64,000 bases of DNA from Candidatus Nitrospira neomarina (GTDB lineage Bacteria > Nitrospirota > Nitrospiria > Nitrospirales > UBA8639), in the NCBI RefSeq assembly GCF_032051675.1, contig NZ_CP116968.1, positions 3,589,001 through 3,653,000 on the forward strand. The letters run 5' to 3'. The translations under genes and the position numbers were made by a program. The notes beneath the pieces were generated by a model, which searched no databases, had not been told where the DNA came from, and saw only the letters and a list, made by a program, of their open reading frames with translations. Positions 41,390-48,788 of this stretch are shown in pieces. Numbering within the stretch: the first letter of the stretch is position 1; each line of letters begins with the position of its first letter.

Positions 41390-41390
41390 T

Positions 41391-41408
41391 GAGACAATTG
41401 TGTCTCAT
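41391..41408. promoter_or_regulatory. operator-like palindrome
   Basis: TGAGACA-N4-TGTCTCA, two bases upstream of the enhancer-binding protein start. It is positioned like an upstream activator or autoregulatory site. Confidence 0.5.
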
Positions 41409-41428
41409 AATAATTAAATGAGTCAAGT

Positions 41429-41451
41429 ATGTCCCAAATATAGGGACATAA
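41429..41451. promoter_or_regulatory. operator-like palindrome, second
   Basis: Perfect inverted repeat TATGTCCC-N7-GGGACATA, followed by a further half-site AGTCCC at 41454. The cores (GTCTC, GTCCC) resemble each other. It lies 48-70 bases upstream of the -24 element. Confidence 0.55.
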
Positions 41452-41498
41452 CAGTCCCAAAATTCCCCAAAATCACGTAAATCAACGGGTTAACTGAT

Positions 41499-41513
41499 GG
41501 AACAGGTCTTGCG
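41499..41513 (+). promoter_or_regulatory. sigma-54 (-24/-12) promoter
   Basis: TGGAACAGGTCTTGC has GG and GC separated by exactly 10 nt (41500-41501, 41512-41513), with -24 TGGAAC (consensus TGGCAC) and -12 CTTGC. The predicted start site is around 41525, on the plus strand, with the upstream palindromes in the right place for an enhancer-binding protein. Confidence 0.65.
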
Positions 41514-41676: not shown

Positions 41677-41739
41677 TGTTAGCAGTATCTTGGCATTTGC
41701 CCCGTAAATTACGAAAACCAAAGGAAGTGTCCCCTTAGT
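41677..41739 (+). CDS. possible 20-residue peptide
   Basis: Open frame MLAVSWHLPRKLRKPKEVSP with AGAGGAG 9 nt upstream. It is basic, with no recognisable motif. Its end is folded into the 8-bp hairpin at 41712-41746. It could be a real small protein, a leader for the RNA, or a chance frame. Confidence 0.3.
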
Positions 41740-41791
41740 TTTCGTCACAAATATACAAGCTTTTACCATTTTATCGATTGGGAAAATGCCG

Positions 41792-41826
41792 GTGTGAAGG
41801 AACGGATGCTCACACCAATTTTTCTC
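41792..41826 (+). terminator. Rho-independent terminator
   Basis: GGTGTGA/TCACACC 7-bp stem with 12-nt loop followed by AATTTTTCTC. It closes the sigma-54-driven unit before the acetyltransferase gene. Confidence 0.7.
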
Positions 41827-41920: not shown

Positions 41921-42487
41921 ATGATGCAAAATCAAACGGAAATTGGGGAACGGCTACATCGAAGAAATGGGAAGAGGACTACCCAACGGCGGTTGGATAT
42001 TCAGCCGGCCAAACGTCATGAAATGGTGATTGCGGCCAACATCCTTCGTTCATCTGCCGACTGGTACCGGCCGTTTCTCCATGAAAAAGATATGGCCCAG
42101 CATGAGGTGGATGAATCCTGGGGAGAGAGAGAGTTTGCCCGGCGGCAGTTTTATATCGGGCGGGAAGAGCAGGCACCGGTAGGCATCGTGTCTACGCAGT
42201 CAGTCGGAGACATGTTTTATATCGGATATATCTATGTGTATGATCACCAAACCGGCAAAGGGTTTGGGCCTCAATTACTTAATCACGTCCGTGATGTGGC
42301 TTGGCGGGAGGGAAAACGCGGCATGGTGTTAATTGCCCATCCCAAAGCCTACTGGGCCACGCGCTCTTATCGTCGTTTCGGCTTTGAATGCATTGCGACC
42401 ACTCGTGAGCAAGTCTTAGAGTGGCGCGGCGGTTGGTTGAAACCCTACTATGAAGAGGGTTTTGAACTGTACCAATATCTGTTCTAA
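41921..42487 (+). CDS. GNAT family N-acetyltransferase
   Basis: 188 residues. A GNAT fold: strand-helix pattern from LDIQPAKRHEMVIAANIL, acetyl-CoA loop QTGKGFG (110-116) in YVYDHQTGKGFGPQLLNHV, and YWATRSYRRFGFECIATTRE near the end. AAAGGA lies 8 nt before the ATG. It starts a plus-strand cluster with the ATP-grasp and papain-like genes, 120 nt upstream of the ATP-grasp gene. The acceptor is unknown; the neighbours suggest an amine or peptide product. Confidence 0.78.
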   Translation: MMQNQTEIGERLHRRNGKRTTQRRLDIQPAKRHEMVIAANILRSSADWYRPFLHEKDMAQHEVDESWGEREFARRQFYIGREEQAPVGIVSTQSVGDMFYIGYIYVYDHQTGKGFGPQLLNHVRDVAWREGKRGMVLIAHPKAYWATRSYRRFGFECIATTREQVLEWRGGWLKPYYEEGFELYQYLF

Positions 42488-42607
42488 CACTCCTTCCCTC
42501 ACAAACAAGCGATTCTCTATTGCTGATGGGTTCTTCTTCCATTTGTCTGTAAACGGGGACAGGATGGAGGAGTTTATTCGAGATGTCCCCCACTAAAGGA
42601 GGTCTGC

Positions 42608-43855
42608 ATGGAAAAGAACGCACCAGTGGTCAAAAAAGCCCGGGTAGGAAAGAGGGCGCCGGTGGCTCTGCTCGGCTATAGCCTGGAAACGATGGAAGCC
42701 GCAAAGGAGCACAATATTCCCTTCGTCGCGGTGGTGCCGGAGGGTTTTGATATCGCATTGAAAGAGGATGGGGTTGATGTGGTGACCTGGGACTATTATG
42801 TCCACAACCACAACTCCGACCGACTCTATGAAAAATTGGTTGAGCGAGGGGTGAGTCATGCAGTACCCCTGTATGAAGAAACGGTGGAATGGGCCGGGTC
42901 ACTCAATACCCGCCTGCTGAAAGACCCACGTGCCTTCCAACGGGCACTGCTGTTCCGTGACAAGGCCATGATGAAGCGCAATGCCCAAATGAATGGCATT
43001 CGAGTCGGGGTGTTTGAAGAGATTCGCTCGCGGGAGGAAGCTCTCGCGTTTTTTGATGACATCAATGAGGCCAGACTCCGCTTGCAGGAGGAAGCGCCAG
43101 AACCGGTTCATCTAAAACCTCTGTCGGCGGCGGGCAGTGTGGGCCATGTGTTTGTTCGAAGCCGGCAAGACATCACCTCCCTTCCCGACGATGCCTTTCC
43201 GTGTCTGGCCGAAAGCCATTTGGCCGGGCAGGAATTTTCAGTCGAAGCCTTTATCCATAAGGGGAAAATCGAATTTATGAACATTACCGAGTACGTGCAT
43301 TTGGGCTATTCCCAGATCGTGCCGGAAACGCCGAGGCTCAGTAAGCACCGGACAAAGATTCGTAAGGCGATTGAAAAACTTTTGAAGGCATTTGGCATCG
43401 TTAATGGTATGATTCATCCGGAATATTTCTTGGACCAGGAGGGGGAGTTGCACTTTGGGGAGGTGGCGGCCCGTGTTCCCGGCGGCCATATTTTCGAACT
43501 CATTCAGCGTGCCCATGGGTTTAATCCGTATGCGGCTCTGTTGTTATGCTCCGATCCCAATACCTCCAAAACAGAATTAGATCGGTTTTTCCCAAAAGAA
43601 AAAGACCATAAAATATTTGCGGCCAACTTGATGGTGTATCCTCGAAAAGCCAGCGTCCATCAACTTCAGTTTCCTAAAGAATTGGAAGCCCATCCGTATA
43701 TGGACCGGCATACCATGTTTGAACCCGTCACCCCAAAAGTGGCAGAGCGCGTGGGATTCGGGAATCATTATGGAACCGTTTTCCTGGCGGGAGAAGATCC
43801 GGAAACTCTGCGTGAGCTCGTCCAACGTTATGAGGAGTATGATTTCTATGAATGA
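42608..43855 (+). CDS. ATP-grasp carboxylate-amine ligase
   Basis: 415 residues, with a strong AAAGGAGG site 5 nt upstream. The N-terminal preATP-grasp domain (VALLGYSLETMEAAKEHN; VDVVTWDYYV) is followed by the ATP-grasp fold: phosphate-loop HLKPLSAAGSVG, FSVEAFIHKGKI and the metal/ribose motif FGEVAARVPGGHIFEL. Related enzymes join an amine to a carboxylate via an acyl phosphate, as in L-amino acid ligases and biotin carboxylase. The substrate is not known. Its end overlaps the next gene by 8 nt, so the two are translationally coupled. Confidence 0.82.
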   Translation: MEKNAPVVKKARVGKRAPVALLGYSLETMEAAKEHNIPFVAVVPEGFDIALKEDGVDVVTWDYYVHNHNSDRLYEKLVERGVSHAVPLYEETVEWAGSLNTRLLKDPRAFQRALLFRDKAMMKRNAQMNGIRVGVFEEIRSREEALAFFDDINEARLRLQEEAPEPVHLKPLSAAGSVGHVFVRSRQDITSLPDDAFPCLAESHLAGQEFSVEAFIHKGKIEFMNITEYVHLGYSQIVPETPRLSKHRTKIRKAIEKLLKAFGIVNGMIHPEYFLDQEGELHFGEVAARVPGGHIFELIQRAHGFNPYAALLLCSDPNTSKTELDRFFPKEKDHKIFAANLMVYPRKASVHQLQFPKELEAHPYMDRHTMFEPVTPKVAERVGFGNHYGTVFLAGEDPETLRELVQRYEEYDFYE

Positions 43856-45842
43856 TTCATCCGAGGGCTCCGCTCAGACTGAATTGCAGGCTGCCACTAC
43901 CCGTCAGGAGCAAGCCTTACTTCAGGCCCTTGAGGCCTTGGAACAGGCGCCGCCATTTGTGAAGGCTAAGTACCAGCCAGAGGTCATTCGTCGTGCCACG
44001 GATTTGTTTGAAACCGACGCAGGACTACAATTTGTGAGAGCACAGGCCCATCGCTTTGACTCCGCTGGGGTCTTTCACGCCGGACCCTGGGAACATCCCG
44101 ACCGGCTTCTCCCCGCGTTGGTGGGCGCGGGGCTCCGTGCCGAAGGGCAGTATTCGTCTTTGGAAATGCTGAGTGAGCTACGGGTTTTAGCCATTGCAGC
44201 AGGTGAATCGCCCCACCCGAAATTTTCTGCGGAGCAAGCCCTAACCTTTTTACGGACGGTCATGGGGCTTAATCTCGATTTGTTGTATGGCAGTGAGACC
44301 GAGGAGTCTCGCCTTCGTCCGAAGGTCTATGAACGGGCGCACAGAACAATGGCCATGATTAAGCATGAGATTTCCTCGGAAGGGTTGCTGGAACAGGTTC
44401 TTGATGACATCGATGCGCGAGTGGCTCAGCGACCAATTGATGTGAGCCTCACCCTAAAAATGATCGAGCAAGCAGAAAACATCAAGGGGGATCCTGATCC
44501 CAAGTTGGCCGCCAGGCTTGACCGGTACCTCAAGGCCACAGGTCCTCCTACACCACTGGCCAAGAAAGCGGGCTCTCCCTCCAACTATGGCAAGCTTTTG
44601 GCCAAAGCCACCACACATGAGATAGAAAATGAGGCCAAGGTCGTTGGAAAATTGTTGACGCTGACCGGGTTATCCAGCGAATACCATGTCGCGTTCCTTC
44701 AGCATGTCCTCAAACATGAGGCAACCGGAATTCTGGCGTTTGCCTTGGATTTGACCGAGGTCGCCCAAGCCCACATGGAACAATATCGGGAAAAGGTCTT
44801 TGAGTTGATGCGCCTGACTATTCATCCTGCCACCAGTTGGATCATTTATGGATTCCAACAGATGTTGGAGCGGATGCTGCTGGCACGACCAGAGGTCGCT
44901 GATGGTCTGACCAAATTGCTTAATCTTGATTTATGTCCTACTGCCCAACAAGTAATCAAGAAACAGCTACCTCGGGGGAGTGGCATTACGGCTAATGCGG
45001 CCATTGTGGGTGGTGCCATCGCCATATTAGGGCAGCCGCTGGGAGTGGGACAGGGAAATAACCCGACCTGTCAGGGTGCTCGAGCCCTGAGCCTTTGGAG
45101 TCTCCATGATCCTGGATATTTGCTCCAATTATTGACCAGCGCGGCTCGGGATGACACGGTTGAATTTATGTTTGAGGGAGCGCCGATTTTATCAGGACAA
45201 ATTGGAGGAGGAGTCGCGGAAGGGAAATTTGATTTGAAGCTCGATCCCGTCTCACGCATTCTGGTGCCCCATCTCGACCGGATTTACGATGAAAAGATGA
45301 AGCGTGCGGCTTTACGGGGTGAGGATCCACACAAATGGGTGAATCCGGCTTTGTATGGCCGGTGGGTGGCGACCAGTCTGGCTTCCATTACGATGGTTAA
45401 TCAGACCGTTTCCGGGTACGAAGATTTTTTACGGTTATTTTATGCCACCCATCACCCGTTGTATGACGGAGGTCATGATTTGGTATACCCCAACCCCGTC
45501 GGGCTCCTCATTACCAATGTTCACGGGGTTTTTTTAGGATATCATGCCGTCTCCATCCAGCGTGTGGCCGAGGATGAAGAAGGGAAGGTTCGTGTTTATT
45601 TTTTCAATCCCAACAACGAGGGCCGGCAAAATTGGGGAAGAGGGGTTGAGCCGTCTGTGGTCGGTCACTGGGAAATTCCAGGGGAATCGTCATTACCCTT
45701 TGAGCACTTTGCCGCACATATCTATGCGTTTCATTATAATCAGATGGAAGTAGGGGACCTCCAAGCTGTTCCGGCCGAAATCATCGCCGATGTGACCGCA
45801 CATGCGAAGGAAGGGTGGGGACAGGCCTTCACCTGGTTGTAA
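43848..45842 (+). CDS. papain-like (Cys-His-Asn) large protein of unknown function
   Basis: 664 residues from the ATG at 43848, whose GAGGAG site is 10 nt upstream (an ATG 9 bases earlier is crowded by it). The first ~370 residues are helical. The C-terminal half holds a plausible papain-fold triad: Cys408 in GNNPTCQGARALSLWSLHDP, His566 in FLGYHAVSI and Asn587 in VYFFNPNNEG. I do not recognise the family; it could be a cysteine peptidase, a transglutaminase-type acyltransferase or an amidase. No signal peptide, so it acts in the cytosol. It is coupled to the ATP-grasp gene, suggesting work on the same substrate. Confidence 0.6.
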   Translation: MNDSSEGSAQTELQAATTRQEQALLQALEALEQAPPFVKAKYQPEVIRRATDLFETDAGLQFVRAQAHRFDSAGVFHAGPWEHPDRLLPALVGAGLRAEGQYSSLEMLSELRVLAIAAGESPHPKFSAEQALTFLRTVMGLNLDLLYGSETEESRLRPKVYERAHRTMAMIKHEISSEGLLEQVLDDIDARVAQRPIDVSLTLKMIEQAENIKGDPDPKLAARLDRYLKATGPPTPLAKKAGSPSNYGKLLAKATTHEIENEAKVVGKLLTLTGLSSEYHVAFLQHVLKHEATGILAFALDLTEVAQAHMEQYREKVFELMRLTIHPATSWIIYGFQQMLERMLLARPEVADGLTKLLNLDLCPTAQQVIKKQLPRGSGITANAAIVGGAIAILGQPLGVGQGNNPTCQGARALSLWSLHDPGYLLQLLTSAARDDTVEFMFEGAPILSGQIGGGVAEGKFDLKLDPVSRILVPHLDRIYDEKMKRAALRGEDPHKWVNPALYGRWVATSLASITMVNQTVSGYEDFLRLFYATHHPLYDGGHDLVYPNPVGLLITNVHGVFLGYHAVSIQRVAEDEEGKVRVYFFNPNNEGRQNWGRGVEPSVVGHWEIPGESSLPFEHFAAHIYAFHYNQMEVGDLQAVPAEIIADVTAHAKEGWGQAFTWL

Positions 45843-45876
45843 GCCTTTGGGCTGTTAAGATTGAAAGGAGTGGAAC

Positions 45877-46149
45877 ATGTCTTTTTTACTAGTCAGGCAA
45901 TCGACGCTGACCGGGGAACGACAGACCTTTATCAGTGCATCAGCCATTGCCTATATTCAAGAACTGAAGCCTGACCAGGATCTTGGTTGGCAAATTGGTG
46001 TAGACCCCTCCAGGGCGCTCATTTACTTGCATCATAAGCTCGAGCCCATTATTTCTCTCGATAGTTCCGATGACCTTGTGAGGCAGGCAAAGGCCAATAC
46101 TCGGGGAGTCCGGGTACCCCAACAGAAATTAGCGAAAAAAACCAAATAA
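45877..46149 (+). CDS. small FlbD-like protein
   Basis: 90 residues with AAAGGAG 6 nt upstream. Two predicted beta hairpins (LLVRQSTLTGERQTFISASAIAYIQEL, LGWQIGV, ALIYLHHKLEPIISLDSSDDLVRQ) resemble FlbD, a small flagellar-associated protein, in pattern and end helix; the Lys-rich tail is extra. No flagellar genes are nearby, so only the fold is suggested. It is 34 nt downstream of the papain-like gene and likely in the same operon. Confidence 0.45.
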   Translation: MSFLLVRQSTLTGERQTFISASAIAYIQELKPDQDLGWQIGVDPSRALIYLHHKLEPIISLDSSDDLVRQAKANTRGVRVPQQKLAKKTK

Positions 46150-46231: not shown

Positions 46232-47419
46232 GTGTGGCTCATGGTGACCGGTGCGGTCGCTGGCGGGGTGCTCGGGGCCCTGGCTCCGGAAGGCGCTCGC
46301 CATGTGGAAGTCCTGGGTGAACTCTGGCTCCGGATGTTGCGGATGCTGGTGGTGCCCTTGATTGTGGCTTCGATTATCCAGGGGGTTGGATCACTGGGTG
46401 ATATTCGCCAATTGGGTAAGTTGGGAGGAGTGACAGTGACGTACTATTTGATCACCTCAGGCATGGCAATTGTGCTGGGAGTGATTCTGGTCAGTCTCAT
46501 TGAACCGGGAGTGGGAGCCGATATTGCCGCAGCGGTGGCCCCGACCGGAGTTGCGGCGGCGGTAAACATCGGATGGCTGGATCTCATAAAGGGATTTCTT
46601 TCCCCAAATTTATTCGCGTCCGCTTCACAGGGTGAATTGCTGCCCTTGGTCATCTTTTCTCTGGCATTCGGGGCGGCTCTGACGACGGTCGGTGAAAATG
46701 GTACCTTGGTGCTCAAATTTTTTGAAGGGATCTTCGGGGCGATCATGAAGTTGATTCACCTGGTGATGTGGATCGGTCCCATTGGCGTGTTTGGCTTGGT
46801 GGCAGGGCGGTTAGCGAGTGCCGGTGGACTTGACGGTATTGTCTCACTGTTAGTTGGGTTAGGATTATTCACCGTTACCGTACTTCTGGGATTGGCGATC
46901 CACGCAGGAATTGTTCTTGGGCTTATTTTGCATGTGGCCGGTCGACGTCATCCTTTGCCTTATATGCGCGCGCTTGGCGCGGCTCTCACCAGCGCGTTTG
47001 CCACGGCGAGTTCGTCTGCAACTTTGCCTCTGACCATGGAGGGTGTCGAACGTGCCGGGGTGAGCAGTCGATCAAGCCGGTTTGTCCTTCCAGTCGGTGC
47101 GACGGTCAATATGGATGGATCGGCGTTATATGAGGCGGTCGCCGCGGTGTTTATCGCGCAAGCCTGGGGAATTGACTTAAGTGGAGAGGCGCTTATTGTC
47201 CTGTTTGTGGTGGCGACGGTGTCTGCCATTGGCGCTGCAGGGATCCCTGAAGCTGGGCTTGTGACGATGGTCGTGGTCTTTCAGGCCGTCGGGCTTCCAC
47301 TCGAGGGTCTGGGGCTCCTCTTGGCCATTGACTGGCTGATCGATCGGTTTCGGACCGCAGTGAATGTCTGGGGGGATGCCGTTGGTGCCGCCGTAGTCGA
47401 TCGATATATCACCGCATAA
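46232..47419 (+). CDS. dicarboxylate/amino acid:cation symporter (DAACS)
   Basis: 395 residues, start GTG. Eight-to-ten hydrophobic segments and the hairpin motifs of the family: HP1 SSSATLPLTME, TM7 NMDGSALYEAVAAVFIAQ, HP2 GAAGIPEAGLV and TM8 DRFRTAVNVWGDAVG. Sodium- or proton-coupled uptake of dicarboxylates or acidic amino acids. No good ribosome-binding site at the GTG; the frame extends upstream to 46166 without an ATG or GTG, so the N-terminus could be a little longer. It stands apart from the preceding cluster. Confidence 0.88.
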   Translation: MWLMVTGAVAGGVLGALAPEGARHVEVLGELWLRMLRMLVVPLIVASIIQGVGSLGDIRQLGKLGGVTVTYYLITSGMAIVLGVILVSLIEPGVGADIAAAVAPTGVAAAVNIGWLDLIKGFLSPNLFASASQGELLPLVIFSLAFGAALTTVGENGTLVLKFFEGIFGAIMKLIHLVMWIGPIGVFGLVAGRLASAGGLDGIVSLLVGLGLFTVTVLLGLAIHAGIVLGLILHVAGRRHPLPYMRALGAALTSAFATASSSATLPLTMEGVERAGVSSRSSRFVLPVGATVNMDGSALYEAVAAVFIAQAWGIDLSGEALIVLFVVATVSAIGAAGIPEAGLVTMVVVFQAVGLPLEGLGLLLAIDWLIDRFRTAVNVWGDAVGAAVVDRYITA

Positions 47420-47534: not shown

Positions 47535-48788
47535 ATGGAATCAAAAATCACGTATCAGAAAATTGCATCTCACGAAGCCAAAAAGGGAACGTTTGATAAG
47601 TGTGTTTTGCTGTACTCAGGAGGACTGGATACCTCCATTATGCTCAAATGGATTCAGGAAGCGTATGCCTGTTCCATTGTGGCACTTACGGTCGATGTGG
47701 GCCAATTACATGAGGATCTTGAGGCGGTAAAAGCGAAAGCGATCAAGCTCGGTGCCGAGGAGGCGGTGGTCATTGATGCCAGGGAAGAATTTGCTGAAAA
47801 ACTTCTGTCCCGGGCAATTAAAGCCAATGCCGATTATCAGGGGGGCTATCCTCTCTCGACTCCCCTTGCCCGAGTGACGCTCTCGGAGATTGCCGTTCGT
47901 GTGGCCAAGGAACGGGGAATCAAGGTCATTGCTCACGGCTCCACGGGAAAAGGAAATGATCAGGTTCGCTTTGAAAATTACATCACGACGTTGGATGCGA
48001 CGATGAAAGTGATCGCGCCGGTACGTGAATGGAGTATGGGCCGGGATGAACAGATTGATTATGCCAAACAACACGATATTCCCATTAAACAAACTAAAGA
48101 GTATTTGTATTCGCATGATGACAATATGTGGGGTTCGACCAATGAGGGAGGGGATATTGAGGATCCCGCCCGCGTTCCCGATTTACGAAAATTTCTGCAG
48201 GTGTGCATTCCCCCGGAACAGGCGCCGGATGAACCGGAAATTGTCGAAGTCGGGTTCAACAAAGGAATTCCTTGTTCAATCAATGGTGAGGATCTGCACC
48301 TTTGTCAGGTCATTGAACGTGCCAATGCGGTAGGGGCAAGGCATGGGGTAGGCATTGTGCATTTGACGGAGGACCGCTTGGTCGGATTGAAGGTTCGTGG
48401 CGTATATGAAGCTCCGGGAGCGGAAATTCTGATCAAAGCGCATTTTAATCTGGAAAAACTCGTTAATACCCGTGATTTAAACGAACTGAAAAAAATCATT
48501 GATGAAAAGTGGGCCTACACCTGCTATGGCGCTAAATGGTTTGATCCCTCAATGGATGCCATCCATGCGTTTCAGGATTCCGCCAACCAGCGTGTGAAGG
48601 GAACGGTGAAAGTAAAGCTGTTTAAGGGAAAAGCTGATGTGGTCGCCATGACATCCCCCTACTCCTTATTCGACGCCAATTTGGCCACCTTCAATAAGGA
48701 TGCGAGTTTCAACCAGAATGCGTCTGCAGGTTTTATTGAGATTTACAATCTGGCCCAAAAGACCTATCGGCGCTTAGACCAGGTGTAG
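47535..48788 (+). CDS. argG: argininosuccinate synthase
   Basis: 417 residues. PP-loop CVLLYSGGLDTSIMLKW, then AHGSTGKGNDQVRFE, PVREWSMGRDEQIDYA and GSTNEGGDIEDP are conserved. Joins citrulline and aspartate in arginine synthesis. The N-terminal extension before the PP-loop is longer than the bacterial type I enzymes, and the SVWGTN-like segment (MWGSTNEGGDIED) matches the type with an intact ATP site. Single gene, convergent with surA-like. Confidence 0.95.
   Translation: MESKITYQKIASHEAKKGTFDKCVLLYSGGLDTSIMLKWIQEAYACSIVALTVDVGQLHEDLEAVKAKAIKLGAEEAVVIDAREEFAEKLLSRAIKANADYQGGYPLSTPLARVTLSEIAVRVAKERGIKVIAHGSTGKGNDQVRFENYITTLDATMKVIAPVREWSMGRDEQIDYAKQHDIPIKQTKEYLYSHDDNMWGSTNEGGDIEDPARVPDLRKFLQVCIPPEQAPDEPEIVEVGFNKGIPCSINGEDLHLCQVIERANAVGARHGVGIVHLTEDRLVGLKVRGVYEAPGAEILIKAHFNLEKLVNTRDLNELKKIIDEKWAYTCYGAKWFDPSMDAIHAFQDSANQRVKGTVKVKLFKGKADVVAMTSPYSLFDANLATFNKDASFNQNASAGFIEIYNLAQKTYRRLDQV

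Follow-up and report, generated by a model that had tools for sequence, protein, structure and literature searches.

What is made by a compact group of plus-strand genes in the marine nitrite oxidiser Candidatus Nitrospira neomarina, in which a GNAT acetyltransferase and an ATP-grasp ligase are followed by a 664-residue protein without a known family and by a small protein of 90 residues? The group lies in a stretch of 64,000 nucleotides (nt), called here the window (contig NZ_CP116968.1, positions 3,589,001 to 3,653,000), which is part of a 4.8-Mb single-contig genome. An earlier note on this DNA had read the four genes as one set, in which N-acetylation, amide-bond formation and a cysteine enzyme would serve the synthesis or remodelling of a small amide or peptide. 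Its gene models were confirmed: the four plus-strand open reading frames (188, 415, 664 and 90 residues), the strong ribosome-binding signal ahead of the ligase gene, the 8-nt overlap between the ligase gene and the next one and the 34-nt gap before the last are all found in the window (Table 1), and both the GNAT and the ATP-grasp identity lie above the Pfam cut-offs. The core of the unit is nevertheless two genes and not four, those of the ATP-grasp ligase and of the 664-residue, papain-like protein. The class of chemistry, synthesis of a small amide or peptide, is well supported. That the locus is an inducible module for such synthesis, in which the ligase and its papain-like partner yield a product of the arginine/ornithine family, is our tentative reading, given somewhat less than an even chance. 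The sequence families, the coupling of the two genes, the predicted fold with its triad, the DNA elements and the linkages between genes are results of the analysis; catalysis, substrate, product and physiological role are what we infer from here on.

Within the genus the gene order is well kept. Up to 13 genus loci show, as far as their contigs reach, the succession aminotransferase, M32 carboxypeptidase, activator (minus strand), GNAT, ATP-grasp ligase, 664-residue protein, 90-residue protein, symporter, argG, surA and mfd, and because of this conservation the four reading frames are considered real genes and not chance ones. The carboxypeptidase gene is missing from some of these loci, the divergent activator keeps its position in every locus with enough flank, and the four proteins are mostly 51-98% identical across the loci. 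Close relatives in named records are metagenome-assembled genomes (MAGs) of Nitrospirales; in a sample of the phylum the pair of ligase and papain-like genes was noticed only in the genus (3 of 296 genomes).

Far more distant bacteria carry the pair as well. When a profile of the 664-residue protein was run against 84,980 species genomes, 117 relatives were obtained; the best 80, which were retained, are 34-44% identical and belong to Bacteriovoracales, Balneolia, Rhodothermaceae, Gemmatimonadetes, Bacteroidota, alpha-, beta- and gammaproteobacteria and one Sumerlaeota MAG. Outside the genus there are 72 loci; at 62 of them an ATP-grasp gene shares the stretch with the homologue and is mostly adjacent to it. 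The ten without a nearby ligase gene lie at contig edges or in Marinobacter, whose genomes all have the ligase elsewhere in one or more copies. Among 148 genomes of Cyclobacteriaceae, 34 carry both genes and none has just one of them, the remaining genomes giving only weak partial ATP-grasp matches. The two genes are also found in the same genomes of the Nitrospirales genus bar one, in which the papain-like gene is cut by the end of its contig. Between the distance matrices of ligase and papain-like protein the correlation is r = 0.93, a value reached in none of 2000 permutations. Some gammaproteobacterial MAG loci (L079, L081 and L083) have two tandem papain-like genes with a single ATP-grasp gene. 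One Halomonas record was matched in a plasmid collection, with no annotation beneath the match.

The GNAT and 90-residue genes were not found beside the pair at loci outside the Nitrospirales genus, and the four-gene set, confined in this way to the genus loci, was rejected as a general module. The gene-neighbourhood comparison therefore went against the four-gene order beyond the genus and in favour of the core pair. The third gene at 37 loci of Bacteroidota, Balneolota and Rhodothermota is one of the alanine-racemase family (both tested members exceed the TIGR00492 cut-off), which in many of those genomes is additional to a long reading frame of ~805-845 residues, presumably MurF-Alr. As the alanine racemase gene replaces the GNAT gene in Bacteroidota and Balneolota, N-acetylation does not belong to the general chemistry; of the two steps proposed before, the amide-bond ligase stands and N-acetylation as a general step does not. 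In pooled Pfam scans of the nearest neighbours elsewhere, arg genes and alr were the only families in common.

The 664-residue protein matches no Pfam or NCBIfam family, and its 62 homologues give scattered weak hits to unrelated families only. In its AlphaFold2 model, made with 62 sequences (predicted local distance difference test, pLDDT, 87.8 for the whole protein), residues 1-395 are all-helical and a mixed, papain-like C-terminal domain spans approximately residues 365-640; modelled alone, this domain has a pLDDT of 87.1. Cys408, His566 and Asn587 are invariant in the 62 homologues, and their placement, with the cysteine at the start of a helix, the histidine on a strand and the asparagine after the next strand, is the arrangement of clan CA. 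The papain-type triad and the helical N-terminal half, which had been suggested from the sequence, are borne out by this invariance and by the predicted topology, which gives no sign of the three residues lying far apart. Foldseek returned no significant match with the whole protein and calpain-9 with the C-terminal domain (E 3.4e-4, prob 0.99). With VIA-align 2 the domain was aligned to calpain-3 (Z 7.8, root-mean-square deviation 4.2, 206 residues aligned), the C39 domain of PCAT1 (Z 7.0) and the phytochelatin-synthase-like Alr0975 (2bu3, Z 6.2), in a list dominated by papain-like enzymes including staphopains and bleomycin hydrolases. The papain-like fold is well supported by these models, though not proven. 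A signal peptide is not apparent in the sequence, which favours an enzyme acting on small molecules in the cytoplasm over a secreted protease. Phytochelatin synthase and BtrH are papain-fold enzymes known to carry out synthesis or transfer with small molecules (PMC10318531); by prediction the window protein has the same fold, but it shows no sequence match to either family. It can be said that the protein stands for a family absent from Pfam and NCBIfam, and that in several phyla this family goes strictly with a single ligase.

The nearest solved structures to the ligase in a profile search are 4wd3, which we take to be RizA (the entry itself is listed merely as L-amino acid ligase), and BL00235 (3vot). 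These enzymes have the ATP-grasp family and the E ... ExAxRxxGG motif in common with the window ligase, whose E272 and ExAxRxxGG block align with RizA and whose E272, E285, A287 and R289 are invariant, but the similarity is low (profile E 6.7e-10 for 4wd3). Neither RizA nor BL00235 is known to work with a papain-like partner. Assignment of the window enzyme to the L-amino-acid-ligase type (EC 6.3.2.28 class) is a well supported prediction. The products of RizA are dipeptides of the type Arg-X (PMC9321006), an activity that by analogy matches the genetic arginine link of the pair; the specificity of RizA is not transferable to the window ligase, because the similarity is too low.

The pair appears to be tied to arginine/ornithine metabolism. 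It adjoins an argB-argD-argC-argJ operon at two Marinoscillum loci, in one Saprospirales MAG and in one Cryomorphaceae MAG, and argD-argC-argJ in genome G419; argB, argD, argC and argJ are the genes by which ornithine is made. Beside the pair of Cyclobacterium lies a divergent arginine operon (argG, argC, argD, N-acetylornithine carbamoyltransferase, argB). Carbamoylation of N-acetylornithine bypasses free ornithine, and the sampled Cyclobacterium genome, like related ones, retains an argBDCJ-type operon elsewhere. Across the 148 Cyclobacteriaceae genomes ArgJ and the pair are found together in 28, the pair only in 6, ArgJ only in 11 and neither in 103, so that ArgJ accompanies the pair in 28/34 genomes and occurs in 11/114 of those without it (odds ratio 44, Fisher p 1e-15, uncorrected for kinship). 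In the window argG stands two genes downstream of the cluster. Four genus genomes which lack the cluster have argG inside argD-F-G-H, ~40% identical to the window argG, and in the source genome (L231:12955-16646) argD, argF and argH are found with ~42 nt in place of argG; it looks as if the resident argG had been displaced by one carried with the cluster. These observations are suggestive of an arginine/ornithine-family substrate of the ligase. At the Marinoscillum loci (L046:11149-11988 and L047) a protein of ~280 residues, with no Pfam or NCBIfam match, is encoded between the racemase gene and argB.

The inseparable recurrence of the two genes, together with the arginine/ornithine tie, indicates that the pair probably makes a small amide or peptide. 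The ligase would activate a carboxylate as acyl phosphate and couple an amine to it, an amino acid of the arginine/ornithine family being most likely one of the partners. The papain-like protein would then form an acyl-enzyme on Cys408 and process that small product further, be it by transfer and extension or by trimming and recycling. Accessory genes would set the final form, the GNAT by an N-acetyl cap in marine Nitrospirales and the extra alanine racemase by a D-residue in Bacteroidota. In the source genome the operon would be turned on by sigma-54 RNA polymerase and the divergent activator acting at three sites, and the product would probably accumulate in saline settings as a compatible solute and/or a nitrogen reserve. 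According to record titles, many named hosts of the pair live in the sea or in soda lakes or are halophiles, and on this ground a compatible solute is plausible; CSSed, T1Sed and T3Sed denote soda-lake datasets (PMC6146748). A nitrogen reserve would suit the sigma-54 control and the arginine link equally well as an osmolyte role.

Several points weigh against this proposal. The Z scores of the papain-like domain in VIA-align remain below 8 and are moderate. ArgJ is absent from 6 of the 34 pair-positive Cyclobacteriaceae and from Marivirga, its co-occurrence statistic takes no account of phylogeny, and proteobacterial pair loci are without arginine-gene neighbours. A proteome-acidity proxy of salinity, noisy and taken from one stretch of <=20 kb per genome, gave no difference between 30 and 25 genomes of Cyclobacteriaceae. 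Moreover, a further osmolyte is not required in marine Nitrospirales, which possess routes for betaine and trehalose already (PMC10579370).

Four other explanations have to be considered. The ATP-grasp/papain-like pair might cooperate alone, with the GNAT, the 90-residue protein, the symporter and argG co-located for other reasons, which is unlikely although not far-fetched: none of these genes accompanies the pair outside the genus, yet their order is held in all genus loci, even diverged ones (papain-like protein 76% identical), and a predicted sigma-54 promoter precedes the GNAT gene, which would on this account be read first. A synthetase/amidase pair, in which the amide formed by the ligase is hydrolysed again by the papain-like enzyme, so that the two together set its level, is rather unlikely. 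The one-to-one coupling of the two genes speaks for such an arrangement, and it has a precedent in the trypanothione enzyme, whose synthetase part is of ATP-grasp type and shares one polypeptide chain with a CHAP-type amidase. Glutathionylspermidine/trypanothione synthetase-amidase brings an amide ligase and a papain-fold amidase to bear on one small amide (PMC2784880), but the window has separate genes and another papain family, and the 664-residue protein is without sequence similarity to CHAP or any Pfam family. Moreover, a plain amidase leaves the conserved helical half of ~400 residues unexplained, and two tandem papain-like genes per ligase at some loci suggest more than recycling.

The remaining two explanations start from the company kept at the window locus and from the relatives of the ligase. 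Papain-like domains (PF11814) fused to GNAT, which belong to predicted amidoligase systems of the RimK kind and have been discussed as peptide ligases, are known (PMC10318531), and the same three activities, ligase, acetyltransferase and papain-like domain, are united here. Amino acids might then be added to a protein or carrier, possibly the 90-residue protein, with the papain-like enzyme trimming or transferring them. This is improbable, as the GNAT is a separate, lineage-specific gene, the 90-residue protein is equally genus-specific, the window papain-like domain belongs to another family with a ~400-residue helical half, and the ligase resembles enzymes for free amino acids. No PF11814 hit was obtained up to E 1 in the 664-residue protein, nor is the family among those listed for the 62 homologues, and no carrier gene is shared among the neighbours of the pair elsewhere. 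The closest solved ligases, BL00235 and RizA, the latter presumably linked to rhizocticin, are L-amino-acid ligases, so one might also think of an antimetabolite or signal dipeptide similar to bacilysin or rhizocticin, with the papain-like enzyme as a maturation or self-protection hydrolase. This has a low probability: no exporter, resistance or tailoring gene is conserved with the pair, which is kept across whole marine and halophilic lineages, unlike most antibiotic clusters.

A known osmolyte system close to this locus is that of N-acetylglutaminylglutamine amide (NAGGN), whose operon (asnO-ngg-aminopeptidase; PA3459-PA3461; PMC8070244) likewise has a GNAT and an ATP-grasp function alongside a gene of peptidase type, has a divergent regulator gene and makes a dipeptide-type solute, which is plausible here too. 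In NAGGN synthesis Ngg is a single protein with both functions and AsnO is encoded beside it, whereas the window has two reading frames for GNAT and ATP-grasp, a papain-like enzyme as its peptidase-type member and a sigma-54 activator where NAGGN has a MarR regulator. Among the neighbouring genes of the cluster, to which this comparison was confined, there is no AsnO-type amidotransferase. The earlier judgement that the locus is not a NAGGN system was therefore right.

To return to the arginine/ornithine product, its boldest form, which must be called rather unlikely, is that the pair founds an undescribed pathway in distant marine and halophilic bacteria, leading to a capped Arg/Orn peptide (N-acetylated in Nitrospirales, with a D-residue in Bacteroidota) used as osmolyte or nitrogen store, and that the papain-fold enzyme is a peptide-bond-forming transferase and not a protease. 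If such a peptide is accumulated at high salt, marine nitrifiers and halophiles would have an added compatible solute or nitrogen store, and a papain-fold enzyme would have a synthetic role. Due to the strict tie to one ligase, comparing metabolites just once in a host that can be cultured, such as Cyclobacterium, Marinobacter or Halomonas, could reveal the product. No description of an ATP-grasp/papain pair was found in the literature searched, subscription papers being largely outside the reach of that search.

The divergent sigma-54 activator gene, three tandem palindromes, an invariant sigma-54 promoter and the arginine/ornithine link are newly recognised here. The activator matches Pfam Sigma54_activat (3.4e-65) and HTH_8, shows GAFTGA in its translation and has no match to a receiver domain in Pfam. 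The palindromes, which follow the pattern TGRGACA-N4-TGTCYCA, lie between its gene and the GNAT gene. In the promoter, GG and GC are invariant in 11/11 aligned genus loci, and rpoN is present in the genome. As single patterns both palindrome and promoter occur at near chance frequency in the window, and the strength of these elements is their conservation and arrangement, not single-pattern rarity: two adjacent zero-mismatch palindromes are found only here in the 4.8-Mb genome, other single matches being at control level. The GAFTGA activator, rpoN, the tandem sites and the invariant promoter together predict a local sigma-54-dependent switch, with a leader of ~400 nt, by which the operon would be controlled through the divergent activator. 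This regulator-promoter pair in marine nitrite oxidisers is testable for its inducing signal. The leader matched no Rfam family; it holds two hairpins, the second with two covarying pairs in its outer stem, which are possibly an attenuator or RNA element.

Table 1. Coordinates of the cluster, its predicted control elements and its neighbours in the window
Feature	Position	Strand	Remarks
Sigma-54-dependent activator, 488 residues	39923..41389	-	AAA+ with GAFTGA, Fis-type helix-turn-helix
Putative activator site 1	41390..41407	+	perfect palindrome TGAGACA-N4-TGTCTCA
Putative activator site 2	41419..41436	+	TGAGTCA-N4-TGTCCCA
Putative activator site 3	41442..41459	+	degenerate palindrome AGGGACA-N4-AGTCCCA, 2 mismatches
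Predicted sigma-54 promoter, -24/-12	41498..41512	+	TGGAAC-N5-TTGC, downstream of the three palindromes
Leader hairpin 1	41711..41745	+	ACGAAAAC ... GTTTTCGT, conserved
Leader hairpin 2	41791..41816	+	GGTGTGA ... TCACACC, kept through wobble changes
GNAT acetyltransferase, 188 residues	41921..42487	+	Pfam Acetyltransf_1 5.7e-9, above cut-off
Ribosome-binding site	42595..42602	+	AAAGGAGG, 5 nt ahead of ATG 42608
ATP-grasp ligase, 415 residues, L-amino-acid-ligase type (predicted)	42608..43855	+	Pfam ATP-grasp_4 1.9e-8, above cut-off
Papain-like partner protein, 664 residues	43848..45842	+	ATG 43848; predicted fold and invariant triad
Codon of Cys408, predicted catalytic	45069..45071	+	first residue of helix 408-420
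Codon of His566, predicted catalytic	45543..45545	+	in strand 562-575
Codon of Asn587, predicted catalytic	45606..45608	+	directly after strand 581-586
90-residue protein without known family	45877..46149	+	kept only in the Nitrospirales genus
Na+:dicarboxylate/amino-acid symporter	46232..47419	+	Pfam SDF 3.9e-115; conserved neighbour
argG, argininosuccinate synthase	47535..48788	+	NF001770, 487 bits vs cut-off 334

The other neighbours of the cluster are the aminotransferase and the M32 peptidase genes. The 90-residue protein had been called FlbD-like, an identity that was dropped: Pfam scans of the protein and 7 homologues assigned no family and gave no hit to FlbD (PF06289), the sole hit of any kind being non-significant (E 0.17).

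Some loci show particular settings. A second Marinobacter pair (L132, L134, L136 and L140) is located between the malate:quinone oxidoreductase gene (mqo) and an acetolactate-synthase-type gene, with a small lipoprotein-like gene next in several loci, and this setting is taken as lineage-specific. At one Balneolales locus (L066:8761-9852) a relative of the D-hydroxyaspartate aldolase genes comes after the alanine-racemase gene, together with genes resembling a tripartite ATP-independent periplasmic (TRAP) transporter, neighbours which hint at D-amino-acid metabolism. Within the Nitrospirales genus, MAG HKST-UBA08 (G016; loci L016 and L019) contains the whole cluster twice, in diverged versions of 88% and 76% identity, owing either to a duplication or to the presence of another species in the bin.

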